Below are positions 16,501-54,613 of a stretch of DNA of 64,000 bases, one piece after another. Position numbers and translations under genes: made by a program. How positions within the stretch are numbered: position 1 is the stretch's first letter; each line of letters starts with the position of its first letter. The notes under the pieces are model-generated. The model saw only the letters and a program-made list of their open reading frames with translations. It ran no database searches and was not told where the DNA came from. The stretch is from Artemia franciscana (taxonomy: Eukaryota > Arthropoda > Branchiopoda > Anostraca > Artemiidae): NCBI RefSeq assembly GCF_032884065.1, contig NC_088867.1:1240001-1304000 (forward strand), read 5' to 3'.

Positions 16501-19500
16501 ACCGTTTGGGAAACGGACAGTAGCCATACTCTTGTTTGTAATGAAGACACCATTCATTAGAAGTAGATAACTCCTATTCTCGGAAGACAACCGCGGTCTA
16601 ACAACCATTCACTAATCCAATTCTCACTTATCTTTGAATTCTGTTCTCCCAATTATTATAATAAAAAAAACCTAAACTAATTTTGCAGAACTTAGTAGTC
16701 ACTTAAGATAGAGAAGGATAATTCTAAGTAAGAGAATTCGTTATTTAAGTAAGAGAATGATAATTTTACCGTTTGAGAAATGGGCAGTAACCAACTCTTG
16801 TTTGTTGTGAAGACACCATTCATTAGAAGTACACAACTCCAATTCTTTCGGAAAGAATTGGGAAAAAAAACTTTCGGAAAGTTTTTAATTAATTTTTGTT
16901 TGTTTTTTTATTGCAAAACTTTCAAGTTTAAAAAAACTCATTATTTCAAAATAAGATTTTTTTTTTCAACATCAAACTTTCACCAGAGTATCAAAACTAG
17001 TATCTAAGTAATAATATCAAAGTACCAAAGTATCAAAGTAAAGAGAGAATCAAAGTTAACAAGGTATTAAATTAATCAAAGTAACAATAAACAACTTGCA
17101 AAACTTACAGCCCTTGCTCAATAAATCGAGGTTACCACGTAAATCATTAAATCCAAGTATCAAAGTAAACAAATTATTAAAGTAACTATAATTAAGTTCC
17201 GTAACTCAGAGCCATTTCCCCAGGCCCTGGAGACAGAGTTATTTGGCCTTTGAGCTATTTTGAACAAAATGGCTATCTCCAAATTTTGACCGGATGTCCT
17301 TGGGGAAAGTGGGACGTGGGCTAATTGGCCATTGATCACTTTTGGCTCTTAAAAGAGAGCTAGAACTTTCAATTTCAGATGGAATGAGCCCCCTCCAAAG
17401 TTAATACGACCGCCCCTTCCACAGAACGTTATGTTGTAATAACAGGGTACTTACACAAGTTACAATCCTTGCCCCGGGGCACAGGGAAGATTTCTCAACC
17501 CCTAGGTTATAGCAATTTGAATTTTGGACTATTTTGAACGAAATGGCTATTTAAAAATTTTATTTCAATGTGTTTGGAGAAAAACTCACAAGGGGAGGGG
17601 GATAATTTTTGACTACTTTCGATTCTTAAGGTTATAATTCCTATCCCGGGTGGTATGAAGGATTTCTCAGCCCCTAATTTACAGTAATCAAATTTTAGAC
17701 CATTTTGAACGAAATGGCTATCTCAAAATTTTTATTGGTTGTATTTGGGGTAAAAGACGTGGGGGGGGGGTAGATACCCCCTGATCACGTTTGATGACTC
17801 TTAAAAAGGTAACAAAAACTTTAAATTTCCAATCATACGAGTCATCTCTGAAATTTGTACAACTACCACTTACATATAACCGTATATACCCTTGCCCGGG
17901 CTCCGGGGGGATGTGTCGACCCGGAGTTTTCGTTATTTGATCTTTAAACTATTAGAACGAAATAGCTATCTCAAAATTTTGATTGGATGCATTTGGGAAA
18001 AAGGGCCTTGGATGGGGACTAGTTGCCCTCCAATCACTTTCGACTCTTTAGAAGGGCACTAGAAATTTATGATTTACAATCGAATAAGCCCCCTCCGTAG
18101 TCTAACGACCATCCCTTCCATAAAAATCTCATATGCCCGCCTGGGCACATTTTACAACACTCGCCCCCGGATTCTGTGGGGGGGGGGGGCTGTTTCGTCC
18201 CCGGAGTTTTTGTTATATTATCTTTCATCAATTTTCAACAAAATTACTGTATAAAAAATTCGATTGGATGCGTTTGGGGAAGGGAGTTTAGGGAAGGTTG
18301 GAAGGGAGGGAGGACTAGTCGCCATCGGGTCACTTTTGACTCCTAAAAAGTAAATTAAATAAAAAAAATTTTTTTTAAACTGCAAATAAGGATCAACACT
18401 AAAACTTAAAAGGAACAGAAAGTATTCCGTATAAGAAAGGGGTTGTCCCCTCCTCAACGTCCCGCTCTCTACGCTAAAGCTTGACTCTTTGTCACAACTC
18501 TACTTTTTAAAACAATAAAAATCTATAATACCACCCCTCATGTGACCACTTATATGAAGTTCATTTGACCACCCCTTACATAAAAGCCTCATATGCCTCC
18601 GGGGCATAACTTAAGACACTTTCCCCGGGATCTGGAGGGCTGTTTTGACCCCGGAATTTTGTTATCTGATGCATGAACTATTAAAAAAACTAGCTATCTC
18701 AAAATAGGATGGATTTGGGGAAAAAGGGCTAGGGGGGGGGGCTAGTTACGCTCGGATCTCTTTTTACTCTTAAAAAGCCACCTTCGAAGTTTATATGACC
18801 ATCCTTTACATAAAAACCTAATACGCCTCTGGGGCATAACTTTGGAGTTTTAGGTATCTGATGTTTGAGCTACTTTAAAAAAAAATGGCTCAATTTCCAA
18901 TCAAATGAACCCTCTCCAAAGTTTATACAAGCACCTCTTCCATAAGAACCATATATGCCCCCAAAGCATAACTTACAACGCCTGTCCCCGGGCCTTGGGG
19001 GGTTGCGTCGACACGAGTTTTTTTCTTATCTAACCTTTGAACTACTTTTAACAAAATGGCGATCTCAAAATTTTATCGGATTGGTTTTGGGCAAAAAGGG
19101 TGTGGAGTTGCTAGTTGCCCTCGGATCTCTTTTGACTCTTAATAAGTGAACTAGAACTTTCAGTTTGCAATCAAATGAGCCCTCTATGAAGTTTATGCGA
19201 GCATCCCTTTCACAAGAACCATATATGTCCCATGGACATAACTTACAACACCTGCAACCGAACCCTGGGGGGTTGTGTCGATACCGGAGTTTTCGTAATC
19301 TGAACTTTGTATTATTTAAAAAAAATGTCTATCTCAAAATTTGTGTCTGATGGGTTTGGGGAAAAAATGGCATGGGGGGACTAGTTGCCCACCGATCTCT
19401 TTTGACTCTTAAAAAGTGAACTAGAACTTTCAATTTCCATTCAAATGAGCTCTATGTGAAATTTATACGAGCATCCCTTCCATAAGAACCATATATGTCC

Positions 19501-20995
19501 CTAGAGCATGACTTACAACGCTCCAGGCCATGGGGGCTGTATCTATATCGGAGTTGTTCTTATCTAATCTTTGAACTATTTTAAAAATAGCTATCTCGAA
19601 AATTTTTACCGGATGGGTTTGGAGAAAAAAGGAGGATAGTTGCCATTGGATCTCTTTTGACTCTTAAAAAGTGAACTAGAATTTTCAGTTTATAATCAAA
19701 TGAGCCCTCTCTGAAGTTTATACGAGCTTCCTTTCCATAAAAACCATATATGCCCCCAGGGCATAATAGAATGCCTGTCCCCGGGCCTTGGGGGTGTCGA
19801 CACTGGAGTTTTTGTTATCTGACCTTTGAACTATTTTTTAACAAACTGGCTATCTTAAAACCTTTTTCGGATGCATTTGGGGAAAAGGAGCGTAGAGGGG
19901 GCTAGTTGCCCTCCGATCTCTTTTGACTCTCAAAAACTGCACTAGAACTTTCAATTTCAAATCAAATGAACCCTCTCTGAAGTTTGTACGAGCATCCCTT
20001 CCATGAGAACCATAAATGCCCCTAGGGCATAACTAGCAACGCCTGCCCCCTGGCCCTGGGGGTCGTTTTGACCCCGGAGGTTTCTTTATATGATCTCTGA
20101 ACTATTTTTAAAAAAATAGTTATCTCCAAGTTCTGGTTTCAGGAAAAAGGGCGTGGAGTGGGGGGACTAGTCGCCTTCCGATCTCTTTTGACTCTTGAAA
20201 AGTGAACTATAACTTTCAATTTCCAATCAAATGAGGCCCTCTCTGAAGTGTATACGAGCATCCATTCCATAAAAACCATACATGCTACCTGGGCATAACT
20301 TACAATGCCTGCGCCTGGGCCCTGGGGGGTTTTGTTGATACCGGAGTTTTTTTATATGATCTTTGAACTATTTTTAGCAAAAAGGGCGTGGCAAAAAAGC
20401 AAAAATCAAAATTTTTGTCAGATGTATTTGGGAAAAAGGGCGTGGAAGGGGGGCTAGTTGCCCTCCAATCACTTTTAACTCTTAAAAAGGGCACTAGAAC
20501 TTCCGATTTCCAATCCAATGAGCCCTTACCGAAGTTCATGCGACGACACCTTCCATATGAAGTGCTTCTGGAGAAAAAATAAATAACAGATAAATAAATA
20601 ATAAAACATTGGAGCAGTATGGCCTTTACTATAGGCAATGCTATAGGGTTGCCTCTGATAAAACCTGACCTAGTTTCTTCTTTCAGGGAAACTTTCAGAA
20701 GAAGGCATTAGAACTGTAGTAGAAAGTCTTAGAGATAGAAAAGCAGCGAATTGGGTTGACACACAAAAGAGTAAGTAAGTAATTTCTTCATTACATCCTA
20801 AAACTGAAGACGTTTTTCTAATTACAACATAAAAACATGAAGAAAACCAGCGAAATTGACTAAACTGGAGAACTAGCTTGTAAAAGTTAATCTACATTCA
20901 GAATCTCCACCTATCTGATGGCGTGGGTCTCCTGGAAACTGTTAGTTTCCACTGTTCTATTTTCAGCTGTGCTGAAGGAAACCAACGTGTTTCGT

Positions 20996-24000: not shown

Positions 24001-27000
24001 CTGTCATTTAGATCGGGAACTTTTCCGGATTCATTTAAGAAAGCAAAGGTGATACCACTGTATAAAAGCTCTGACCGGAGTAATTGCACGAATCACAGAC
24101 CGATATCTATTCTTTCAGGTTTTTCTAAATTAATGGAGCGATTTTTTTATAATCAATTTATTCACGAATGTCTTGATAAAAAATGATTCCGGCAAGTATT
24201 TTTTTGGATCTTGAGAAGGCATTTGACACGATTTGTCACGAAATATTGTCGTTTAAATTAAGCCATGGTGGGATACGAGGACCAGCGCACGATTTTATCG
24301 CATCTTACCTAACAGGTCGATCCCAAGTAACAACTATCAATAAAACAGTTTCGGATCCATGCTTATTGCCCAATATTGGTGTTCCTCAGGGTTCAATTCT
24401 GGGACCACTGCTCTTCCTAATATACATAAATGACCTTCCATCAACAACAGAAACCAACAGCCTGAATGTCCTTTTCGCCGATGATACCGGATCAACACTT
24501 GCAGGGAAGTCGGAAGATGATGTCAAAGAGAAGCTGCAAATCGTGTTTTCCCAGCTGATTGTATGGCTAAAAGCTAATCTTTTGTCATTGAATGCCGCCA
24601 AAACGAAATTCATCATTTATAGTAGACTTGGACACAAAGCAAAAGGAATTTCAGCTATAATTGATCAGGCTACAGATATTCGAATTCAAAGGGTAACTTC
24701 ACTCCGGTATCTTGGTATAACTATTGATGAAAATCCATCTTATAAAGAACATTGTAATAGATCACGCGTTAAAATCGCCCAAGGAGTTAGTGTAATGAGG
24801 AGGCTTCAGCATTTTTTCCCCTATGAAGTTCTACGACTCATTTATTTTGCCTTGGTGCATTCCCATCTTACGTATTGTCCCCTGATTTATTTAGCAACTT
24901 TCAAATCAAACAGTTCGTGGTAACGAACTGTAGTAAGGAGCGACCCGGCTCAATAGTAAACGGAACTCTAAAAAACGGAATTTTGATGCTAAAAGATATA
25001 TCAAAAGAATAGGATTTTTATGCTGATTTTAAATATATAAGGTTCATCAAATTTAGTCTTTGTCATCAAAAGTTACGAGCCTGAGAAAATTCGCCTTATT
25101 TTGGAAAATAGGGGGTAACACCCCCTAAAAGTCATAGGATCTTAACGAAAATTACACCATCGCATTTAGCGTATCAGAGAACCCTATAAAAAAATTTCAA
25201 GGTCCAATCTACAAAAATGTGGAATTTCGTATTTTTTGCCAGAAGACAAATCACGGGTGCGTGTTTATTTGTTTTTTTGTTTTTTTGTTTTTTTTTGTTT
25301 TTTTTTTGTTTTTTTTTCCCAGGGGTCATCGTATCGACCAAGTGGTCCTAGAGTGTTGCAAAAGGGCTCATTATAACGGAAATGAAAAGTTCTAGTGCCC
25401 TTTTTAAGTGACCAAAAATATTGGAGGGCACCTAGGCCCCCTCCCACGCTCATTTTTTCCCCAAAGTCAACGGATCAAAATTTTGAGATAGCCATTTTGT
25501 TCCGCATAGTCGAAAACCATAATAACTATGTCTTTGGGGATGACTTACCCCCCACAGTCCCCGGGGGAGGGGCTGCAAGTTACAAACTTTGACCAATGTT
25601 TACATACAGTAATGGTTACTGGGAAGTGTACCGACGTTATCAGGGGGATTTTTTTGGTTTGGGTGTGGGGTTCAGGGGAGGGGGCTATATGGGAGGATCT
25701 TTCCTTGGAGGAATATTTCATGGGGGAAGAGAAATTCAATGAAAAGGGCGCAGGACTTTCTAGCATTACTATAAAAAAAAAAACAATGAAAATGTAAACA
25801 TGAAAAAGTTTTTTCAATTGAAAGTAAGGAGAAGCATTAAAACTTAAAACGAACAGAGATTAACACGCATATGAGGGGTTCTAAAAATACTCTAGCATAA
25901 AGAGCGAGGTATTTAGGAGGAGATAAATACTTCGCTCTTTATGCTAAATATTTTTAAAATAATTTCAACTATTTATTCTACGGCCTTTCTGATTCAGGGG
26001 TCATCCTTAAAGAATTGGGATAAAACAAGATTTAGTGTGAAGAGCGAGGTATTAACGAGGGGACCAACCCCCTCATATATATAATCAAAAATATAAGAAT
26101 ATAAAAGTTTGTTACGTAAGTTAATTCTTAAGTTACGTATTTTTTTTTACTAATAAAAACGTTCGTTAAAAATAAAAGATCTAGTTGCCTTTTTAAGTAA
26201 CCGAAAAATTGGAGGGCAACTAGACCTCCTTCCCCACCCCTTATTTCTCAAAATCGTCTGATCAAAACTAAGAGAAAGCCATTTAGCCAAAAAAAAGAAT
26301 TAATATGCAAATTTCATTTTTATAATTTATGTACGGAGAGCCAAAATCAGAAATGCATTAATTCAAAAACTTTCAGAAATTAAATAAAAAACAAGTTTTT
26401 TTAAATGAAAGTAAGGAGTGACATTAAAACTTAAAACGAACAGAAATTACTCCGTATATAAAAGGGGCTTTTCCTCCTCGACACCCCACTCCTTGCGCTA
26501 AAGTTTGATTCTTTCTCGCAACTCTACTTTTTAAAACAATAAAAAACTTTAGCGTAAAGAGAGGGGTGTCGAGGAGGAAAAGCTCCTTTCATATACGGAG
26601 TAATTTCTGTTCGTTTTAAGTTTTAATGTCGCTCCTTACTTTCATTTAAAAAAAACTTCTTTTTTTATTTAATATCATATAAAACCGATACAGACTCTTC
26701 AAAACCGGGCTCTTCGAATTTTGCAAAGATATTTACCGTCGCCTTCTTCCTATCCAAATAAATCTAAAACTGAAACTATATATTTATTAACTAATATTTT
26801 GCCTGTTTCAGAATTATTCACTCTTCATTCTTTTTTATTCAAGGTAAAATATAACCGCTCAGAACTGCCTTCGTACTTTCGTACGAGAAATTCTTTCCCT
26901 GAGCAACCTGACCATGTTTATGAAACCCGTAATAAATGGAGAATGCAGCACCTGAAATTAACCACTGAGAGATCACGGTTCTCGCCATATTTCTCGATCA

Positions 27001-37140: not shown

Positions 37141-37169
37141 AATTTCTGTCTGTCGGTCCCGGTTTTGCT

Positions 37170-37530
37170 AGTTCAGGCACTTCCAGATAAGCTAGGATTA
37201 TGAAACTTGGCAGGCGTATCAGGGACAAGACCAGATTAAATAAGAAATAATCTCTTCCCTGATTTGACCATCTGGGGGGGGGGGGGAGCGAGCGAACAAA
37301 ATAGTTGAGATGAATTTTATTTGCCGATACAAAAAAAAATATTGTTCTTCTTAATTGTGGCTTGCTGGTCTAGGGTAGGATTCTCACTTAGGATGCGAGT
37401 GGTTTTAGGTTCGAATCCCGGACCACCCCAATTTTTACATAAAAAATCCAAAACTAGATACGTGATTAGTATAGCGATTACTGAAAGCTGGCAGGCGTAT
37501 CAGGGACCAGGCCTAAATTAGAAATAGCAA
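37170..37530 (+). repeat. Family B fragments flanking a tRNA-Pro-like unit
   Basis: 37170-37290 ('gcacttccagataagctagg', 'ttggcaggcgtatcaggga', 'gatttgaccatctgggg') and 37485-37525 ('gctggcaggcgtatcaggga') match the leading block of family B at 47110-47225. Between them lies the tRNA-like segment described separately. Confidence 0.7.
37359..37429 (+). repeat. tRNA-Pro(AGG)-derived pseudogene or SINE head
   Basis: Resembles tRNA-Pro: ggcttgctggtctaggg (A box) then gattctcacttAGGatgcgag (anticodon arm, AGG) and GGTTCGAATCC (B box, 37408-37418). The acceptor stem pairs at only 4 of 7 positions, the T stem is mismatched and the D loop is one base short. It is therefore unlikely to be a working tRNA and is better read as the head of a SINE-like repeat. 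Confidence 0.7.
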
Positions 37531-38439
37531 TTTTGCAAAGTTTCAGAGAAATTATAGAAATAGATAGATTATCAATTAAATCTGTTGAAAAGATACCTTA
37601 GTGTTAGTATTAATAGAGATGAGGGGATTTTAGGATAAACTCAGTTTATAATAGTTGAATTAAGGAGCAGTTAAATTCTTCAACCAGTAGTGATTCTGGA
37701 ACAATTCCAGCGATTCCAGGAACTGTCCTGGAACAAGTGATAACCTTGCGAACAAAAGTCAGAATGAGGTCAAAGCTGGGAAAAGTCAACAGACTGCAGC
37801 TACACTAGCAGACAAAAATACATTTCATTTATAATTCATGAATTTGTTGATTAACCTGTGAAATTTAGTTAGGGCTGTTGGAACTGGGGTTTAGTGACCT
37901 TTTTGTTTGTTCAAGTAAATATAGTCTTCACTTTTAATTGATTCCTATTTATACATAGATTGTTGAGAGGAGAGTGACCCATGGTTTCACTATAGACATT
38001 CGCTTTGGTTGATGTTATAACATCAGTACTGGAAGTTTGTTTATAATGTGAGTTGTTCTTATTCATTTACCTTTTTTTTTTCTTCTTCGTCTGTTTAATT
38101 GCTGTGTTTTTTTTAGTATGATGTCTTAAAAACGTTTTTTTTTTAGTGTGATGTCTTAAAAACGTTTTTTTTTTTGTTTCTTATTTCGTTTTTTTTTTCG
38201 TTGAGAAAGGCTCCCAGACGCGGGGCCAGAATATTCGGAATATTTTTTAAACTAAAGTGTTGCTTTGTTGTTATTTTTTGTTCACTGCTTTATTGAAATT
38301 AAAACCCGTTTTTTCTTGCTTAATTTTTCGTACTTTTTTTTATATCTACTCATAGCCCAAGAAACCAATCAATTCTCACTTACCTAATTTAGAAAAGTCT
38401 CTACTCGATGAGGAAAAATAAATATAGTATGGAAGAATT

Positions 38440-39915: not shown

Positions 39916-40424
39916 ATTAGTAGTTATTGTATCCATTGAAATGCTTAGTTATTGCTCTATTAATTATTTTTGTTTTTACATTACATTCTAATATGATAAT
40001 AGCCGTAATATAATTAAAATTAAACACCGATAATTTAACGTAATTTCTACAGTGATAATAACAAAATAGTTATAGTTTAATGGGAGAACGTGCCTGATTG
40101 GTTGACAGCAAATTATCAATATTTGGCTTCAGCTTTCCTAGGAAGGACCGCAAATCTCGTCGTTCTGTGATTTTCAAACTGCTTTACTTGTTATATCGAA
40201 AGCTCTATCGCAATTCCCTACAGTCCAGGATATTTTTTAGGTATTTTTGCCAGCAAGCCAAAATATTTTATAATCTTCTGAAAATGTTGAAATATTTGAT
40301 ATAAATTCCAACTTCAGCGCCTCATTAGTGAGAAGTATTTTTTCGGCGGAAGGGGGAAAACACATCAAAATTTCTTTATATGCATTTTCGTTACGTTTTC
40401 GCGAGTTGGATAAAAAACTCGAGG

Positions 40425-40466
40425 GAGGGGGGTTCAAGCCTCATAACCTTTCCCCCCTGGATACGG
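40425..40466. mobile_element. MITE end (solo terminus)
   Basis: CTGGATACGGCCTT at 40453-40466 is one terminus of the MITE seen at 28901-29472, with a G-rich subterminal stretch like that copy. The opposite end was not found. It abuts the hAT remnant and seems to have truncated it. Confidence 0.6.
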
Positions 40467-40472
40467 CCTTGC

Positions 40473-40870
40473 TCCTCTTGTAGTATCACATTCCGTTATA
40501 TCACTTGGATTTATGGTCCTCAGTGGTATTTCCATCAACAGGATATCTTCGAACGTGATTTTGGAGTCGTCATGTAGGGCATTCAAATGTTGCACATATG
40601 TCTGAATATCCTCATCAAGGCCTGTGACAAGTTTGAAAACTGGGAAAATTCATGCTGAGTAATATTTTGCTTTCCAGAAATGCTGAAATTACAACCTTTG
40701 ATATTTTAAAATGAGGTTGCCCTCTGGTAACAGTAAATTAATGCCTTTTTTGAACAAATCTGTCAAATACGCGGTGTCTGCTTTTAAGGTGATTCTCCGA
40801 GGTTTGAAGCAAATTCTATTTCCTATAGCATTGAAATACGCAACGAGATTTTCTCCTTTCTCATTGGCTT
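40473..40870 (-). pseudogene. hAT transposase remnant (ZBED5/FAM200-like)
   Basis: Minus-strand translation gives, in order, NAIGNRICFKPRRITLKADT, AYLTDLFKKGINLLLPEGN, then GLDEDIQTYVQHLNAL and ITFEDILLMEIPLRTINPSD. The 'L-N-x-x-L-x-G-x-N' and 'F-x-D-I-L-x-x-x-I-P-x-x-x-I-N-P' blocks belong to the middle-to-late part of hAT transposases related to ZBED5/FAM200/SCAND3. Stops interrupt the frame. The dimerisation region that should follow is missing where the MITE end begins. Confidence 0.65.
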
Positions 40871-41150
40871 AATTGCTCTCTTGAGGGTTGTACCAGAATA
40901 TTTAAATACTGTTGTTTATTACGATCGGATTTAAAGGGAATTTAAATTTTTTTCACATGTCTAATTGGTAACAGCTGACCATTGAAATTTGGTTGGTTAC
41001 AAGTCAGATAACAGTTTAGCATTTGAATTTTCACAATGGGCAGAAAAAAAATAAGAACAAATAAAGGATGGGAAAACCTGAGACATCGGTAAGTTCTATT
41101 CCAACGTTATTGTAGATTATATTACTTTTATTCATGTACAAGTTACATTT

Positions 41151-42490
41151 TCAAACAGTTCGTGGTAACGAACTGTAGTAAGGAGCGAAGGGGCTCAATA
41201 GTAACCAAAACACTAAAAAACGAAGTTTTGATACAAATAGTTACATCAAAAGAATTGCATTTTAATGCTGATTTTAAATATATAAGTTTCATCAAGTTTA
41301 GTCTTACCGGTCAAAAGTTACGAGCCTGAGAAAATGTGCCTTATTTTAGAAAATAGGCGGAAATACCCTCTAAAAGTCACATAATCTTAACAAAATCACA
41401 CCATCAGATTCAGCGTATCCGAGAACCCTACTGTAGAAGTTTCAAGCCCCTATCATAAAAAAGGTGGAATTTTGTATTTTTGCCAGAAGACAGATAACGG
41501 GTGCGTATTTTTTGTTTTTTCTTTGTTGTTTTTTTCCTCAGGGGTGATTGTATCGACCTAGTTGTCCTAGAATGTCGCAAGAGGGTTCATTCTAACGTAA
41601 ATTAAAAGTTCTAGTGTCCTTTTTAAGTGACCGAAAAACTGGAGGGCACCGAGGCCCCCTCCAACGCACAGTTTTCTCCAAGGTCACCGGATCAAAATTT
41701 TGAGATAACCATTCTGTTTAACTCAGTCAAAAATCTAATAAATATGTCTTTGGGGATGACTAAATCCACCTCAGTTCCCGGGGGAGGGGCGGCAACTTAT
41801 AAACTTAGACCATTGTTTACACATAGTAGTTGTTAATTATGAAGTGTACAGAGGTTTTCAGGGGGACTTTTTTGTGTTGGGGTTAGGGTGGGTCGGGGGG
41901 GCAGGTTACGTGGGAGGATCTTTCCATGGAGGAATTTTTCATGAGGGAAGAGAATTTCCATGAAGGGGTCGCAGGATTTTCTAGCATCATTTATAAAAAG
42001 ACAATGAGAAAATATTTTTTTTCAAATGGAAGTAATGATCAACATTAAAACTTAAAACGAGCATAAAATATTACTTAAATAAGGGGGTTTGTCTCTTCCA
42101 CAATACCTTGCTCTTTACGCTAAAGTATTTTTAGTAACTTCAATTAGTTATTCTACGGCCTTTGTGATTCAAGGGTCATTCTGAAGGATTTGGGACAAAA
42201 TTCAAGCTTTAGTGTAAAGAACGAGGTATTGACGAGGGGGCAAACTCCCTCACATACGTAATAAAAATACACACATATATAAGTTCGTTACATAAGCTAA
42301 TTCGTAAGGTACGTATGTTTATTACTAACAAAAACGTTTGTAAAAATATAATAAAAAAAAATCTAGTTATATTTTTAAGTAACCAAACATTTGGAGGTAA
42401 CTAGGCCTCCTTTCCCCCCCCCCCTTTTTTTTTTAGCGAAATCGTCCGATCAAAACTATGAGAAAGCCATTTAGCTTGTAATTAACATAA
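41151..42490 (+). mobile_element. Family A element, copy 3 (lacks 3' foldback)
   Basis: Starts TCAAACAGTTCGTGGTAACG and follows copy 2 closely through 'ctttggggatgactaa', a G-rich box and 'aaaacttaaaacgagca'. A shorter inverted pair (about 42030-42130 and 42185-42265, around 'ctctttacgctaaagt' / 'ctttagtgtaaagaac') is retained. Homology stops at 'gaaagccatttagc' near 42472, short of the terminal hairpin. Non-coding. Confidence 0.85.
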
Positions 42491-42505
42491 AATTGCTTCT
42501 CCAAA

Positions 42506-43140
42506 CTAAACATCCGTATGATATATGGGTAGATTATAGCAAAATATATCGTGCAGAGTACATTCCGGCAGAATATGCTTCAATCTTTTGAGGATGCCAA
42601 CTCCACGTGCAACTTTGGTGGAGATAATGTCGCTATGATGCTTCCACGATAGATTTGAATCAATATGGAAGCCGAGGTACCGCAGCTTTTCACCTAATAG
42701 AACTTTACTACTTATATCAACAGAATCACCCACTCTACAAAATGTCAGTAAGAATTTTTCTTTACATTCACACACAGCAAACTTAAACTTGTAAACATCT
42801 CTAATCTTTTGAGAGTAATATGAGCTTTTACTATTAAATCATCTGCGGATTTTGCAAATACTGTTAGCAATATATGTATCCTTTAGATAAACGCGCGTCT
42901 TGTTCACATAAACTGAATAAAGTAAAGGGCCCAGCACAGACATTTTGCTATTTATAATGTTAGATATTGTCGTATGAGTGTCTACACCAGGTAACTACTT
43001 TACCCCATGAAATACAAGGCTATCAAGCATGGACTCCTGATCATAATTATCAAGCTTTTTTTCTATTCTACTAATCCTCTCCTCCAAATTTTCAATTTGA
43101 AATCTCAGACTAACAAGAGCCTGCTCGATTTTGCAAACTT
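42506..43140 (-). pseudogene. LINE remnant with ORF1 and RT pieces joined
   Basis: On the minus strand from 43138 down: an ORF1-type coiled coil (RFQIENLEERISRIEKKLDN, YDQESMLDSLVFHGVK), then directly RT motif B (SVLGPLLYSVYVNK near 42955), ADDLIVKAHITL (motif C with FADD-type core disrupted) and the thumb YLGFHIDSNLSWKHHSDIIS through VARGVGILKRLKHILPE. The endonuclease and the first half of the RT are missing, so a large internal deletion joined ORF1 to RT. Frameshifts and stops are present. Confidence 0.75.
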
Positions 43141-43209
43141 TGGATTAAACTTGAGCGTGATTGAATCATAAACCTGGCTGATTATCAGTTCAATACCTTC
43201 TTTGTTCAA

Positions 43210-44190
43210 TGAATTTGGGTCATTGGGTCATTGGACGGTTAATTCGAAAAAATGAGGTATTTTTAAGTTACGAAGGAGTGATCGAATCTTAATGAAATCT
43301 CATATTTAGAAGGATCTTGCAACTCAGATCTTTTATTTTAGATCTGGCTGAATCCAGTTTCATTGGGAGGAATTGTGGGGGGGACCGGAAATCTTGGAAA
43401 CGCTTAGAGTGGAAAGGTCACGATGAAATTTGGTGGGAAGAATAAGCACACATCCAAGATACGTGACTGACATAACTGGACCGGATCCTCACTCTTTGGG
43501 AGAGTTGGGGGGGGGGTAATTCTGAAAAATTTGAAATATGAGGTATTTGTAATTTATGAACTGGTGATCAGATCTTAATGAAACTTGATATTTAGAAGGA
43601 TCTTGTGCTTCAGCACTCTTATTACGAATACCGACCAGATCCGGTGACAGTAGGCGGAGTTGGATGGGGAAACCGAAAATCTTGGAAAATGATTAGAGTG
43701 AAGAGATCGGGATGAAACTTGGTGGGTAGAATAAACAAATATCGTAGATACGTGATTGACGTAACCGGACTGGATCCGCTCTCTTTGGGGGAGTTAGGGG
43801 GGTCTAGTGCTTTGGCGATTTCGGTGCTTCTGGACGTGCTAGGACAATAAAGATTGGCAGGCATGTCAGGGACCTGCACAAACTGACTTGATAAAGTCGT
43901 TTTCCCCGATTTGACCATCTGAGGGGGGCTGAAGGGAGAGGAAAAATTAAAAAAATGAGGTATGTTTAACTTACCAGTGGGTGATCAGATCTTAAGGAAA
44001 TTTGATATTTAGAAGGACCTGGTGTCTTAGAGCTCTTATTTTAAACCCCGACCGGCATTAATTATCTGATTTTCCTTTTCAATCAATCCATTGATTCTTA
44101 GAATTTTGCTAGAGCTCATACCATATGAGCTCTTGGTTCTTCCGACCTCGTCATAAGTGCCATATGAGCTCTTAGCTCTTGTTTTTTTTT
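43210..44190 (+). repeat. Family B repeat array, 5' of the transposase ORF
   Basis: Three diverged units of about 290-420 bp, marked by 'gatc.gatcttaatgaaa' at about 43268, 43566 and 43984, with 'gctcttattttaaa.cccgacc', 'aatcttggaaaa.gctt' and 'ctctttgggggagttgggggg'. It ends with a 190-bp tail holding the hairpin GAGCTCATA-CCA-TATGAGCTC (44113-44133) and 'gagctcttagctcttg', then T10. The same tail ends the array at 48975. Confidence 0.9.
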
Positions 44191-44193
44191 CAG

Positions 44194-46861
44194 GAAGAAA
44201 AACTTGCCCGAACAAGAAAGTTTACCAGAACAAGAAAAATTTCCAGTGTCTCCAAATTGTTCCAGGCTTTCCGAAACTCCGAATCCGGCTTTAACTATTA
44301 TAGATGATTCTACGGTTAGTAAAAATGCGCCATCTGGTAGCTCTTGCGATTTTGGTTCGCCAGGAGAACACTTTGGAATCGATTTGTCTGGAATTCCAGA
44401 TGTAAATTGTATAGTCAACTTGCGTCATCTGCTTAGTGAGTTTATAGAAGCAATAAAACATCAGTTCAATTGCAAGGACGGGAAATCAAAGCTTTGCGTG
44501 AAAGAAATTAAAAACACTGGACTCCAAACAAAGCTCGTCGTTATCTGCCAAGACTGTGGCTGGAAAAAGCGAGTAGAAGGTGAGCCGGAAGCCCCCCTCA
44601 CTACTGTAAAAGAATACCTAACAAATTTCAGTGAACAGATATTAGGTAACAAAAAAGAGAAGATCAGCAATTTACGAGGCAACGTGAACGTGAAAGCTGT
44701 ATGGGGTATCATGGGGACCGGAGGAGGCTACGCATCTTTGAACGAATTATTAAGTGTATTGGGAATAAAAAATATGAATCCGAAAACGTTTATGAATTTA
44801 GAACGCTTAGTTGGTAACGCATGGATGGATGCACTATCAGATGTCTTAGAAGAAAATGGTCGTGAGTCCTTGAAATTAGCCATTCATGAGGACAGGTTTA
44901 TCAACGATTTTTTCTGGACTAAGGTCATCTGTGATGGTGGCTGGAATAAACGCAGCAAAGGACACGATTATACTGCAAAAGGTTGTGTTGGGGTAATCAT
45001 TGATGCCTTTACGAAAAAATTATTATATGTAAGAATAAGAAATAAATATTGTTACCTCTGCTTCAGCTCAAAGAAGGCAAACCAGAAAGTGAAAGATCAT
45101 GTTTGCTTTATGAACTACAATGGTCCCTCGAAGAGCATGGAAACCGACATTCTTGTTGAAGGTTTTCGCCAAAGTGAAGCCATGCATAACCTTCAGTATT
45201 TACAATACATCGGAGACGGCGATTCTAGTGTTTTTTACAAGCTAAGACAAAGTGTTTCATACGGATCATATATCCAAAAAGAAGAATGTGCCAATCACGT
45301 GACCAAGAACTATACAAAATACCTCCATAATGTTGTGAAGACAAAAAAAGGGATGCACAGCAAATTTCTTTCAAATGACATAATTCTAAAGCTAACCAAA
45401 AATCTACGAGGTGCAATAAAAAAGAACTCGGCTGATGGTGGGTCTGCCGAAAATCTAAGACAACTCTTACGAAGAGGCCCAGAGCATGTGTTTGGTAATC
45501 ATAAAGAGTGTGATTCTGGCTGTGCCAAAAAGAATGGGGTCTTAGAAACTGTGGAGAACCGCTATAATAACCTTCCGAAAACTATTTTGGAGGATGTAAA
45601 AGCTGGCGTGGAAAATATTTGTAAAAAAGCGGACTTATTAAGAAACGATGCAACGACCAATCTTGCCGAGAATTATATGTCTGTTGCAGTGAAATTCGTA
45701 GGCGGAAAACAAATAAGCCGCTCGAAACGATGGTCATACCATGCTAGGATAAGTGGAGCAAGCCTATCCTACTCCTTGGGCCCGAAATGGCAATCTTCTA
45801 CATGGAAAAAAACATTTGGCTACAGTCCTTGCAAAATAACAAAAGAATACACGGTGAAAACTTCTAATCTTCGGAAACGGACAAAAACAAATCAGAAAAG
45901 ATATTACGCAACCATGGGTGGGAGATATATGGCCAAAAAGAAAGAGAATCGGAGTTTGCCTAAAGGCGATCAAAATTACGGACCAAATTGCAACAAGCCT
46001 GATATGAATCCAGAGGAATTTGAAATCGCAAAAGCTGATTATGTTGCAAAAAATATGAATCTGGATGGAGCCAAACTGCAGGAGATCTACGTAAACACAA
46101 TGGGGCAAAATGATAACTGGATATTTGAGAGGAGCAAAAGGATTACTGCCACTTATTTTCATAGAATAGCTTCTCGCAAAAAAAATACTCCAACCGCACC
46201 CATAGTCAAGAATATCCGAATTAATTCTAATTTCAAATCTATTCCAATGCTTAGGGGAATTCAACTGGAGGCTATTGCACTGACGGCGTACGAGCAGAGA
46301 GAGGGAGTATCATTAATAAAAGGAGATCAAATGGGACTACTCATTCATCCAAATATCCAGTTTCTTGGAGCTTCTCTTGATGGTCGCTTAGAAAACGGCA
46401 CACCAGTTGAAGTGAAGACTGTCCATAATATTCCCAGAGGAATGACCATAAGGGAAGTGGCATCCCAAAAAGGATTGGTAAAGAATTTTTTCCTATGGTC
46501 ACACAATTCAAAATTGGAGTTAAAGAAAAATCACAAATACTATGCTCAAATTCAAGGTCAGCTAGAAATCACCAATCATGAAGAATGTCACTTGGTGGTA
46601 TATCACCATGAGCATGATGTGGAAATTTTAACTATTCCGAGATCAAAAGAATATTTTTTGTCCATATTACCAAAGCTTCAGGAGTTTTGGAGCGATTGTT
46701 TACTTCCGGAGATATTAGACTCGCGATTGATTAGGAACATGCCACTTAGAGAGCCTGCCTTAGTCCGGGCTGCAGCAAATCGCGGAATGAAACGGACTTT
46801 GGAGCCAGAAGACAGTGGATGTGAGAAAATTACTTGGTCCGACACTGAAAGTGAATATTGA
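44194..46861 (+). CDS. Mutator-like DDE transposase fused to YqaJ-type nuclease
   Basis: One uninterrupted frame (open from 44168, numbered here from the TTG at 44204 as residue 1; stop TGA). Residues about 60-240 form an N-terminal region with a possible CQDCGWKK zinc site. Residues 244-365 look like the RNase H-fold transposase: D244-G-x-W-x-K-R, a C-x-x-C knuckle (YCYLCF), G-D338-G-D340-S and K-E-E361-C-x-N-H, a DDE triad as in Mutator-like transposases, then a His/Cys cluster (H428, H433, C436, C440). Residues about 639-850 match YqaJ/lambda-exonuclease nucleases: RITA, G-x-x-x-E689, S-x-D726-G, E736-x-K738, Q782-x-Q-G-Q. Both active sites look intact. The first in-frame ATG is at about residue 169, inside conserved sequence; a polypyrimidine tract and cag|g at 44191-44194 suggest this is a 3' exon. 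A Kolobok-type assignment is the main alternative. Confidence 0.85.
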
Positions 46862-47100
46862 AAGTGGATTTTTCATTGACATGCGAATAGTATAGAGATT
46901 GTTTAGGGGTCATAATGTATTAGTAGCAGTATTGTTAACCTTAACCTATTAGGGTTGTTTGAATAGTAGACTATTATAGGTTAACTATTAGTGTTGGTGA
47001 ATAGCATATAAATATTAGTAAGTAAATTCTATTTGAAAAATTTCAGCATTCTGTCGAAGTCCAAACCATGTTGATAAGTAAACTCTAATTACGTTGAGAT
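46862..47100. other. Sequence after the transposase ORF
   Basis: Short non-coding stretch. It contains 'gtgaatagcatataaatatta' at 47001, closely repeated as 'gatgaatagtatataaatat' at 48974, on the two sides of the downstream family B array. It may be the element's own 3' UTR, split by that array. Confidence 0.5.
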
Positions 47101-47104
47101 TTAG

Positions 47105-48975
47105 TTGCTACTTTAGGCACTTCCAGGTAAGCTAGGACAGCTAAATTTGGCAGGCGTATCAGGGAGCGGACCAGATTAAATTGGAAATAGTCATTTTCCA
47201 GATCTGACCATCTGGAGGGGGTAGGGGCTGGTTAATTCGGAAAAATAATATTTTTTCGGGGGCCGGTAATATTTCAGAAAAATTTCGGTTAATAGAAAAA
47301 TGAAATATTTTTAACTGACGAACGGGTGACGGGATCTTAACGAAATTTGATGTTTGGAAAAATGTTGCGTCTCAGAGCTCTTATTTCAAATCCCAACTGA
47401 ATCCGGTGATATTGGGGGAATTGAGGGGGGAACCTAAAATCTTGGAAAACGCTTAGAGTCGAGAGATCAGGATGAAACCTGATGGGAAAAGTAAGCAAAA
47501 GTCATAGATACGCAATTGACATAACTAGAACGGATCCGCTCTCTTTGGGGGAGTTGGGGGGTTAATTCTGAAAAATAGAAAAAATGAGGTATTTTTAACT
47601 TAGGAAAGAGTCATCAGACCCCGATGAAATTTGATGTTTGGAAGGATATCGTGTCTCATAGCTCTTATTTTAAATTCCGACCGGATTCGGTGACATTGGG
47701 GGAGAGATGGGAGGGGGAACCTAAAATCATGGAAAAGGCTTAGAGTGGAGGGATCGGGATGAAACCTGGTGGTAAAAATAATCGTAAGTCCTAGATATGA
47801 GATTGACATAACTGGAACGGATCTGCTCTCTTCGGGGGAGTTGGGAGGAGGATTGTTAATTCTGAAAAATTAAAAAAAAAGGTATTTTCGAGTGACGAAG
47901 GAGAGATTGGATCTTATAGAAATTTGATATTTGGAAGGATATCACGTCTCAGAGCTCTTATTTTAAATCCCGACCGGATCCGGTGAAGAGGAAGTTGGGG
48001 GGGGGCCTAAAATCTTGGAAAATGCTTAGAGTACAGGGGTCGGGATGAAACTTGGTGGTAAAACTAAGTACAAGTCCTAGAAACGGGATTGACATAACTG
48101 GAACAGATCTGTTCTGTTTGGGGGAGTTGGGGAGGGAGGGTTAATGCTAAAAAATAGAAAAAATTAGGTATTTTAACTTATGAAAGAGTGATCGTACCTT
48201 TATGAAATTTCATATTTAGAAGGACCTCGAAACTCAGATCTCTCATTTTAAATCCCTACCAGATTCAGTGTCATTAGGAGGGGGGACCGGCATTACTGGT
48301 ACGGATCCGTTCTCTTTGAGGGAGCTAGAAGTTGTTAATTTGGGAAAATTAGAAAAATTGAGGTTTTTTTAACTTAAGAATGGATGACCAGACCTTAATA
48401 AAATTTTATAATTAGAAGAAACTCAGGTCTCAGAGCTCTTCTTTCAAATCCCGACCAGATCTTTTGACATTGAGGGGGAATTGGAGGGGGAAACTGGAAA
48501 TCTTGGAAAACGCTTATAAACGGCGTAGATACGTAATTGACGTAACTGGACTGGATCCGTTTTCTTTGGGGGAGTTAGGTGGTGTGGTTCAGTGTTTTGG
48601 TGAGTTTAGTGCTTCTGGACGTGCTAGGACGATAAAAATTGGTAGGCATGTCAGGTAGCTGCACTAATTGACTTGTTACAGTTGTTTTCCCCGATTCGAC
48701 CATCTTGAGGGCTGAAGGGAGAGGAAAAATTTGAAAAATTGAGGTATTTTTAACTTACGAGTGGGCGATCGGATCTGAATGAATTCTGATATTTAGAAGT
48801 ACCTTGTATCTCAAAGCTCTTATTTTAAATCCCGACCAGCATTAAGCCTCTGATTTTCCTTTTAAAGCAATCTATTGATTCTTAGAATTTTGCTAGAGCT
48901 CATATCATATGAGCTCTTGGCTCTTCTTGACCTTGTCACAAGTGCCGTTTGAGCTCTTAGCTCTTGTTTTTGATG
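47105..48975 (+). repeat. Family B repeat array, 3' of the transposase ORF
   Basis: Leading block 'cacttccaggtaagctagg', 'ttggcaggcgtatcaggga', then six units of about 280-300 bp marked near 47330, 47610, 47905, 48188, 48387 and 48768. It ends in the same tail as the upstream array: 'cattgattcttagaattttg', hairpin GAGCTCATA-TCA-TATGAGCTC, 'gagctcttagctcttgtttt'. Same orientation as the upstream array. Non-coding. Confidence 0.9.
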
Positions 48976-49164
48976 AATAGTATATAAATATAAGTAGTTT
49001 CAAAAATTTATTAAATACTCCTAAGGGGTTTCCTTCCTCCCTTACCTGTATTTATGACCCCAGGGCAAGGGTGCCTAATGTTTATTATGTACCTTCAGGA
49101 GCATATCACTTTAAATGACATTAATTTAGTAAGTATATGCATTACTCCGTAAAGCTAAGTTTAC

Positions 49165-49193
49165 GATTACCCCGGTTCCAAACCGGGGTAATC
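49165..49193. other. Perfect GC-rich hairpin
   Basis: GATTACCCCGGTT-CCA-AACCGGGGTAATC: a 13-bp perfect stem with a 3-nt loop, isolated in AT-rich DNA just after the family B array. Function unknown; it could be a transposon terminus. Confidence 0.85.
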
Positions 49194-49334
49194 AGTCATT
49201 TATGAACGAGCCTATAAATCATCAACTATATGAGATGATGGGGAAAAACCAAAATATTCTAAGATACGGCACTATTAGGAATAAAATGAGATCCCGTGGA
49301 ACTAAAATGGACGAATATCCTACAACTTTAGATT

Positions 49335-49830
49335 AAAAAAAATAATGTTCGTATATTTTATAGGCCTACAATCGGCGTTTCTTTACTTTTAAGAGCCAAT
49401 AATGTTTAAAATAATGTGTTTTAAAGAATAACGTTCTTTTTAAAAATAATATTCATACATTTTATAGGCCTACAATCGATGTTTCTTTACTTTTAAAGGC
49501 CAATATTGTTTAAAATAATGTGTTTTTAAGACTAATGTTCTTTTTAAAAATAATGTTCATACATTTTATAGGCCTACAATCAGTGTTTCTTTACTTTTAA
49601 AGGCCAATAATGTTTAAAATAATGTGTTTTTAAGAATAATGTTCTTTTTTTAAAAAAATGTTCATACATTTTATAGGTCTACAATCAGTGTTTCTTTACT
49701 TTTAAAGGCCAATAATGTTTAAAATGATGTGTTTTTAAGAATAATATTCTTTTTAAAAATAATGTTCATACATTTTATAGGCCTACAATCGGTGTTTCTT
49801 TACTTGTAAAGCCAAACTGTTATCTGCTTT
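49335..49830. repeat. Tandem repeat, five units of about 104 bp
   Basis: 'ttttataggcctacaatc.gtgtttctttactttt' recurs at about 49367, 49471, 49575, 49680 and 49785 (spacing 104-105 bp) with 'aataatgtttaaaataatgtg' and 'aatgttctttttaaaaata'. The last unit runs directly into the open frame described next. Confidence 0.92.
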
Positions 49831-50039
49831 GTAACCTAACAAATTCCAATTCGTATGGTGTTAAAATGATATTGCCTCAAGGTGTTGTTGCCAATTATAC
49901 ATGTTTTCAGCTTCCTTTTAAATCTGGTCTTAATGCTAAGGAGATGTCAACATTCTTAATGACATTCTGGCAAACCCCTCAAGGAGTGCTTAAGCCAATG
50001 AGAAAGGAGGAAATCTTGAATACTAAGAATTATTGCTAA
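49781..50039 (+). pseudogene. Unassigned open frame downstream of the 104-bp array
   Basis: An 85-codon frame without an early ATG: PNCYLLCNLTNSNSYG, MILPQGVVANYTCFQLPF, MSTFLMTFWQTPQGVLKP, ending at a TAA. Its first codons come from the last 104-bp repeat unit. The composition is protein-like, but I recognise no family. It could be an exon fragment or an old transposon piece. Confidence 0.3.
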
Positions 50040-50449
50040 AAATCATCTGTTATAACTACAAAATTAACAATCTTTGGGATTATTTGTCGGTATAAGATCT
50101 ACAAAACGACACAAAAATCAAGGCTATATGATTAGTAAAACCCTTTTAAACAGTAAAGGAAGAATATCTTAAATGGCAAATTTTAAAGGAAACTGATGAT
50201 AATAAAAAAAAAAATTCACGGCTAAAATTTTTGAAATCTTGTGGCAAATGGAGAGGCTACTTTACAATTCTCTACGTCTTCTAAAAGTAATTTTATTGCT
50301 ACTTTTAAAAATTAGAGGTGTCCCCACTAATTAATTTTTTATGAAGCTCTAAAGAAAAAAAAATGCAAATTTGTTCGGCCTATTCATGTCAAAGCTTTCA
50401 ATGAAGCCACAGTAATTTTTTCATCAAAGAATCTGCTCGTGTCTGTTGT

Positions 50450-50665
50450 TAATACGCATTACACTGCTATAGGAAAATAGCATTGGCTTCAAACCTCGGA
50501 GAATCGCCTTAAATTGTTCTGGTTTTCATTAAATCTGAATCTTTACTTCCCAGAAACTCTAAAACCGTTTCAAAAATTGAATAAAATATTTCCAAAGTTG
50601 CACCTTTTGACAACCAGTGTGCTTCAGTATGTATGGCCAATTGTTTATCCATCATTTTCATCGTA
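50450..50665 (-). pseudogene. hAT transposase remnant, rearranged
   Basis: Minus-strand 50660-50530 reads KQLAIHTEAHWLSKGATLEI followed by ETVLEFLGSKDSD, the 'H-T/A-E-x-R/H-W-L-S-x-G' block of hAT transposases. Adjacent 50450-50520 matches the hAT piece at 40795-40860 ('ctccgaggtttgaagc') but in the opposite orientation to that block. So two parts of the same gene lie head to head. Stops are present. Confidence 0.6.
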
Positions 50666-50699
50666 GAATTGTGCAAATATACGTACATTCAATGAATTG

Positions 50700-51050
50700 A
50701 TTCGTATTCAATACATTGAATGTACCAGTTGTTGATGGATGACACAGCGAATTACGGTTACCATTTTTACGAGGAAAAATCGCTAAACTTCTTAAAATAT
50801 TATCTGTCTCCATTGGTAGTTGAATTTTTCAACTTTTTGTGGCCAACTTTGTGTGGCCAAAAGAAGTTTAGCAAACGTTTATGTTTTTCACTATCTAAAC
50901 ACGATAAATTTTGGTGGACCACCGTTTAACAATTGTGAACTCCTATCTGTTTGTCACGCCAACGTAGACCCCGTCAAGTCTCCTGTGGGTCCACCTGGAC
51001 CACTTTAGGGATCAGGGAATTAGACCAACGACCAAAAGATTAACTGTGTA
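50700..51050. other. No recognised feature
   Basis: Short overlapping frames only (50720-50929, 50820-51008); no family recognised. Confidence 0.5.
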
Positions 51051-53243: not shown

Positions 53244-54613
53244 GATTAAATAAAAAAAAAAAAAAAAAAAACAACTAGTTTTTTCAACAGAAAGTAAGGA
53301 GCAACATTAAAACTTAAAACGAACAGAAATAATTAAGTGTATGAGGGGATTTGCCCCCTTCTTAATGCTTCGCTCTTCACGCTAAAGTTTTGAGTACGTT
53401 TAAAAAATCTTCTTATTGTTCTAATTAAATGACCCTTTTGTTTCAAGAGCCGTTCATAAAGAAGTGTGACAAAATGTCAAACTTTAGCGTAAAGAGCGAG
53501 GTATTAAGAAAGGGGAAAGTCCCCTCATACACAATAATTTCTGATCATTTTAAGTTTCAATGTTGCTCCTTAATTTCAGTTGAAAAAAACTTGTTTTTTT
53601 CTTATTTAATTTTTGGTCATTTTTTGAATAATGGTGGGAAATCGGGCTCGGCCTCCACGGAAAGATACTCTAGACAATTCAATACCCATGAAAATTTACC
53701 CCAGAGAATTAGCATCAAAACCTAAATGTAAAATTGAGTTCTCAAAGGGAAAGTAAGTCAAATGAAAGAATTTTGTATAGGAATTCTGGGAAACACCCTC
53801 AGTGTAAAATTTTGCCTGAAAAGTTTAACCTCCTGGAAACTTCCTTCCTCATGGAAATTCTCCCCGTGGAAAATCCTCTCAAAAAATACCGTCCCCTCCC
53901 CAGACCAAAAAATATTTGCATACTTCCCAATAACAAAGAGTGTAGCCTATATAAACAATCGACAAATTACCTAGCTTAAAAGACCTTTCCCCAGGGGCTG
54001 TTGGGGGTTATGTTATCACCAAATATATAGATATTGGGCATTTCAACTATGCTGAACAATATGGCTATCGCAAAATTGTTATCAAACGACTTTGGTAAAA
54101 AAAGAGCGCGGGAGGGGGTTCTTTTCCCACCAAACTTTTTGGTCACTTAAGAGGGTCACTAGAACCTTTAATTTACATGCAAGTGAGACCTTTCCAGATA
54201 TCATAGGACTGTAGGTTCGATACAATCATCCCTAGGTAAATAAAAACAAACAACAACAACAAATAAACGCATCTGTGATCTTTCTTTTGGCCAAAAATGC
54301 AAAACTGCGCATTTTTGAAGATGGGAGTTTGAAAGCTTTACACTCGGGTTCTCAGATATGCTGGATCTTATGGTATGATTTCATGAGAATTTTTTGAATT
54401 TTACAGGTTTTCCCCCTCACTTTTCAAAAATCAGGCAAATTTTCTCAAGATAGTAACCTTTGATTGGTAAAACTAAAATTAACGAGTCTCATATATTTAG
54501 AATCAGAATATTAAGCCAATTGCTTGACTTATATACTGATATCAAAATTCCTTTTTTTAGACTTTCAGATACTATTGATACGGGTCGCTCCTTACTTACT
54601 GTAACTGTTTGAC
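53244..54613 (-). mobile_element. Family A element, copy 4 (full length, inverted)
   Basis: In reverse orientation: head GTCAAACAGTTACAGTAAGT at 54613 downward (its 5' hairpin is degraded), 'agtaaggagcgac' at 54584-54596, satellite-like block near 54050-54200, and terminal foldback at 53250-53600 (arms about 53283-53395 and 53482-53595). The subterminal AGTAAGGAGCAAC at 53293-53305 differs by one base from the inverted counterpart. Ends agree with copy 2, so the family's termini are seen twice. Confidence 0.85.

Follow-up and report, generated by a model that had tools for sequence, protein, structure and literature searches.

A single open reading frame of Artemia franciscana joins a Mutator-like transposase domain to a lambda/RecE-type (YqaJ) exonuclease domain

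What kind of gene is a long, unbroken reading frame that carries a transposase and a nuclease among repeats, and what might the nuclease do for a transposon? We addressed this question in a window of Artemia franciscana DNA, the whole 64-kb stretch that was analyzed. The frame runs on the + strand from stop to stop at 44168..46861 (897 codons plus the stop; predicted protein P0001). Counted from a putative exon start at 44194 it holds 888 full codons, in agreement with the single frame of nearly 890 codons that a preliminary description had reported. No other stop-free run in the window is as long. In 100 first-order Markov versions of the window, read on both strands, the longest run averaged 142 codons and never exceeded 222, which rules out a chance origin of the frame. 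A second copy of the P0001 protein was not found in the window.

The transposase half of P0001 matches the Pfam Mutator-like transposase domain PF20700 over residues 80-450 (44405..45517, + strand), with an E value of 1e-70 and 238.9 bits against a cut-off of 26.5, and covers positions 2-351 of the 357 in the profile. PF20700 was the only transposase family matched by P0001. Within this match, motif reading places a putative first catalytic aspartate at D256 (motif CDGGW, 44933..44935, + strand) and a putative second at D350 or D352 (motif GDGDSS, 45215..45223, + strand). The sequence C374-x-x-H377 comes after D350/D352 and adjoins E373; a C-x-x-H following the second aspartate is presumably a MULE trait. 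The aspartates are those of the DDE triad originally proposed (there D244 and D338 or D340), and we keep them as putative catalytic residues, whereas the glutamate proposed with them, E361 (E373 in P0001), is mis-spaced. A passage on arthropod MULEs gives 120-214 between the second aspartate and the glutamate and 60-84 between the two aspartates, in "amino acids and gaps" (PMC13359780). At just 21-23 residues past the second aspartate, E373 is thus badly placed as the catalytic glutamate. The likely candidate, judged by spacing, is E501 (motif NLAENY, 45668..45670, + strand), outside the Pfam match. It stands 149-151 residues after D352 or D350, inside the published range; the 94-96 residues from D256 to D350/D352 lie above the published D-D range, whose figures count gaps. 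Because the single-sequence model of residues 80-897 was unusable (mean pLDDT, 31.7), E501 stays a spacing-based assignment. Compared with phages, the transposase had a best E value of 1 among 20 of 58 records listed, and no plasmid relative was found at E 0.01.

The nuclease half matches PF09588, the YqaJ/RecE-lambda-type exonuclease domain, over residues 651-804 (46118..46579, + strand; E 1.8e-12, 48.2 bits against a cut-off of 22). Both Pfam domains that the preliminary description had named from motifs are therefore present above their curated cut-offs. In PHROGs, it matched phrog_434, a RecE-like exonuclease (E 1.7e-14). The NCBIfam lambda-exonuclease model TIGR03033 matched at 1.1e-9 with 38.6 bits, under its curated cut-off of 68.05, and a viral alkaline exonuclease model in Pfam matched weakly, also under its cut-off. 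We aligned P0001 with six exonucleases of named phages, hand-picked from 50 records with a match. Residues E701, D738, E748-x-K750, and Q794 (46268..46549, + strand) are identical in all seven rows. These are the nuclease residues first listed as E689, D726, E736-x-K738, and Q782, with 12 added for P0001 numbering, and the set is invariant in this alignment. Against the PDB, a profile of the alignment, six of whose seven rows are phage sequences, reached 8e-85 for LHK-Exo and 3e-32 to 8e-31 for lambda exonuclease. When P0001 was searched by itself, LHK-Exo ranked below an unrelated protease (E 0.75 against 0.34); its alignment to P0001 paired the correct residues.

We also modeled residues 646-873, with 17 phage exonucleases in the alignment input. 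The model had a mean pLDDT of 53.7, with 115 of its 228 residues under 50, and its ten-residue blocks at pLDDT 60-83 fell at model residues 51-110 and 141-200. The best nine Foldseek matches in the PDB were all chains of LHK-Exo and lambda exonuclease, with LHK-Exo 3syy at the top (3e-7) and the lambda exonuclease entries at 7e-7 to 8e-6 (overall range, 3e-7 to 8e-6). All nine had a probability of 1.00, with TM values of 0.42-0.51 and rmsd values of 8.7-17.3. Given these TM and rmsd values, the mean pLDDT, and the 17 phage rows in the input, we take the evidence for a lambda-exonuclease fold to be moderate. Structure prediction had been proposed as a check on both folds; it favored the lambda type for the nuclease at this level, and it yielded no usable model of the transposase. 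Profiles, alignment, and model together identify the predicted domain as one of the lambda/RecE type whose active-site residues are all present, and the nuclease is probably catalytically active.

The frame opens in a manner that suggests splicing. It has its earliest ATG at residue 182 (44711), some 100 residues into the transposase domain, and every catalytic residue named above, in transposase and nuclease alike, falls C-terminal to it. With no ATG before residue 182, either an exon farther upstream supplies the start codon or the gene lacks its 5' end. A splice-acceptor-like sequence, a polypyrimidine tract with CAG (TTTTTTTTTCAG, followed by G), is located at 44182..44193 on the + strand and ends 26 bases downstream of the frame opening, placing the putative exon start at 44194. 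The + strand of the window has four separate sites with a tract of this kind and CAG/G. The frame thus resembles an exon, and the N terminus of the protein would be supplied by splicing. The TTG start assumed earlier follows a bacterial convention and is not credible, given this acceptor-like site and the position of the first ATG. We likewise rejected a bacterial gene, based on the acceptor-like site, the repeats, and the lack of a transposase relative among phages or plasmids. The splice-like signal, the repeats, and a reverse transcriptase remnant (see below) point to a eukaryotic genome, probably that of an invertebrate animal. A first-exon pattern search over about 5 kb upstream (ATG to GTRAGT, in the right phase) returned two candidates of 20 and 17 codons, neither of them convincing.

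The frame is flanked by related repeats. The left flank, R1 (43224..44186), comprises diverged direct units of about 286 bp and a terminal segment ending in GCTCTTGTTTTT, and the right flank, R2 (47105..48971), has units of about 286 bp and a terminal segment, both as in R1. Aligned with each other, the terminal segments of R1 and R2 show 354 matches, 48 mismatches, and 6 gaps (12% diverged). Sequence following the ORF (46981..47020) matches 48957-48996, at and past the end of R2, with a local alignment score of 40. Shuffled sequences (n = 500) scored at most 31, and up to 500 random window segments at most 28, for a pair that was chosen from the repeat list before the significance test. Based on this match, the ORF module sits between two pieces that adjoin in R2. 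R2 reads as R1 minus the ORF module, so the module would have been inserted in such a repeat, or R2 would be a deletion derivative. R1 and R2 may belong to the element.

Elements of the Mutator superfamily have terminal inverted repeats (TIRs) and target duplications of 8-11 bp. We searched 40001-44193 and 46862-51000 for TIRs with an exact duplication of 7-11 bp, an approach that can miss diverged or distant ends, and obtained 37 candidates, none with a combined score above 19. This was nothing beyond the controls, four stretches of the window that gave 22, 25, 27, and 40 candidates and best scores of 20, 21, 19, and 21. Two other repeats were observed near the ORF. A 23-base near-palindrome (AGAGCTCAT...ATGAGCTCT) is found at 44111-44133 and 48895-48917, near the ends of R1 and R2, and could be the terminal hairpin of a non-autonomous element. 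A short repeat (AGGCACTTCCAG...GGCAGGCGTATCAGGGAC) is common to the ORF flanks and a distant site (37165-37281, 37489-37537, 43838-43928, and 47105-47221).

To describe the surroundings, ten other open frames of the window were compared with Pfam. One scored above cut-off, a reverse transcriptase match without the first third of the profile; three were sub-threshold and six had no match. The claim that the frame lies among otherwise dead transposons is covered in part by these ten frames. No clear host gene and no annealing protein were matched among these ten frames, a scan that covered the smaller part of the window. Elsewhere, a dispersed repeat has four copies, at most 1.4 kb long, that are 70-80% alike (41148-42475, 24906-26287, 1372-2074, and, reversed, 53922-54596), and tandem arrays lie at 18890-20561 (270-bp unit, 6.2 copies) and 49338-49815 (104-bp unit, 4.6 copies). 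A tRNA-Pro-like sequence with an AGG anticodon, spotted by eye inside repeats at 37359-37429, is possibly a SINE-like remnant; an ARAGORN tRNA scan of the window and an Rfam search at gathering scores both returned nothing.

We looked for relatives of P0001 beyond the window. With a method that detects close relatives only, neither the full P0001 nor its nuclease half nor its transposase core had a relative among viral contigs, and P0001 had none among prokaryotic genome contigs. DNA patterns for two motifs returned one locus (L007), no locus, and three loci (L008-L010) in separate runs; we rejected these four as chance matches, as tblastn gave at best an E value of 0.05 across 40 residues. 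Arthropods and other animals presumably have similar predicted proteins in public databases, with a common motif past E501, YGPNC-x-KPD in the linker, and a like C terminus of the nuclease. If these proteins are truly alike, the fusion represents a widespread family, one for which we found no description.

The intact frame itself bears on age. In this frame, 3.8% of random substitutions (transition-weighted) would create a stop, and the probability of no stop at 1% divergence is 0.37, or 0.013 with gaps as frequent as those between the repeat ends. By this neutral arithmetic, about 1% divergence would probably suffice to break a frame of 888 codons; thus, the frame is young or constrained. An intact frame fits recent mobility and domestication alike. 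We consider P0001 most likely to be a transposase that is young, encoded by a transposon, and equipped with a nuclease of its own for end resection. The transposon reading draws on the intact frame, the setting of diverged repeats, the reverse transcriptase remnant, and the precedent of ISL2EU (see below), as well as on the ORF module lying between pieces that adjoin in R2, as expected of an insertion or a deletion derivative. Counted against it are the lack of TIRs beyond controls, of a second copy in the window, and of an ATG before the transposase domain, together with the lack of close relatives in viral or prokaryotic contigs and of a transposase relative in plasmids, the poor transposase model, and the low confidence of half the nuclease model. 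Weighing both sides, we judge that the protein is probably encoded by a transposon and not by the host.

The locus might instead be a fragment of a recently active element, 5' truncated or otherwise dead and intact only through its youth. Such a fragment would explain an exon without an ATG before residue 182, an upstream exon that was not recognized (just the two short candidates in about 5 kb), and the failure to find terminal repeats. The acceptor-like site 26 bases past the frame opening suggests a spliced gene, not a random truncation, and we regard a dead fragment as possible but rather improbable. Less probable again is a domesticated host gene, in which an immobile protein of Mutator-YqaJ origin has been retained for DNA repair or recombination. 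The intact frame and nuclease site are consistent with such retention, as is the absence of recognizable terminal repeats with a target duplication, and the repeat ends, 12% diverged with 6 gaps, are at a distance that would leave an unselected frame of this length broken, provided that frame and repeats are of equal age. However, the repeat flanks may already have been diverged when the module arrived, which weakens the age argument, and the frame sits in repeats, with no clear host gene among the ten other frames scanned, the smaller part of the window. That two distinct genes were joined by the assembly or the gene model, the collapse feared in the preliminary description, is very improbable because the frame continues unbroken through transposase, linker, and nuclease in a window that contains no N.

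Returning to the young transposon-encoded protein, we lean, if narrowly, toward the frame being the main exon of a Mutator-superfamily DNA transposon whose protein carries a lambda/RecE-type (YqaJ) 5'-3' exonuclease C-terminal to the transposase. Lambda-type exonucleases degrade the 5' strand at duplex ends. In the mechanism we propose, the transposase part would excise the element via D256, D350 or D352, and E501, and the tethered exonuclease, placed on the excision breaks, would resect 5' strands to give 3' single-stranded tails. These tails would channel the donor gap into repair by homologous recombination, through which the element would be restored or duplicated; alternatively, the resected ends might be made ready for insertion. 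Other options are processing of the element ends and a structural, oligomerizing role for the nuclease. Resection of donor ends by the nuclease is a tentative assignment. More tentative still is the complete scheme, in which a Mutator transposon holds an end-resection enzyme inside its transposase polypeptide and couples excision to homology-directed repair of the donor gap. If true, P0001 would be a one-protein counterpart, in another superfamily, of the ISL2EU pairing of transposase and YqaJ. Such a pairing could let a jumping gene trim breaks of its own making and, if resection is coupled to cutting, would be relevant to homology-directed genome engineering.

Among known systems, lambda exonuclease, LHK-Exo, and RecE share their active-site residues with P0001 and, on a partly confident model, their fold. 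They work alongside an annealing protein. They are stand-alone or phage recombination proteins, whereas the P0001 nuclease is C-terminal to a transposase. Animal MULEs (Phantom/Muta, Ghost, and Spectre) and the related Rehavkus resemble P0001 in the Mutator-type transposase and, if E501 is the catalytic glutamate, in the long spacing from the second aspartate to the glutamate, according to passages in two studies (PMC13359780, PMC6446971). The minisatellite described ahead of the 3' TIR of Rehavkus loosely resembles the tandem units here (PMC6446971). The extra domains named in those passages (PMC13359780, PMC6446971) are zinc, RING, or PHD fingers, whereas P0001 carries YqaJ; around P0001, moreover, the search returned no TIR beyond the controls. 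The main text of PMC6446971 contains no word starting with "nuclease" and that of PMC13359780 none starting with "exonuclease"; neither mentions YqaJ, transposase, and Mutator together. In the open-licence literature, judged mostly by titles, a basis that does not prove absence, we found no description of a Mutator-YqaJ fusion, no mention of PF20700, and no co-mention of "Mutator-like transposase" and YqaJ.

The closest precedent is ISL2EU, a PHIS/Harbinger-like element that the preliminary description left out. As passages in two papers describe, a single animal DNA transposon of this kind encodes a DDE transposase and a YqaJ exonuclease (PMC4482050, PMC9179366), the same pairing as in P0001. 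ISL2EU mostly has two ORFs, with a PHIS-type transposase (HTH/THAP) and YqaJ in the second ORF, whereas P0001 has both domains in one frame and a Mutator-type PF20700 transposase. A passage in PMC7826175 makes the general point that fusions between YqaJ-type elements and transposase genes can arise, and one in PMC4482050 calls the role of the extra ORFs in the PHIS superfamily, including ISL2EU, an open question. What is new here relative to ISL2EU is the different superfamily and a real fusion in one frame. A second superfamily with a YqaJ nuclease, in frame with the transposase, argues for a direct role of the nuclease in transposition, and the single polypeptide offers a test object for the role of YqaJ in transposons.
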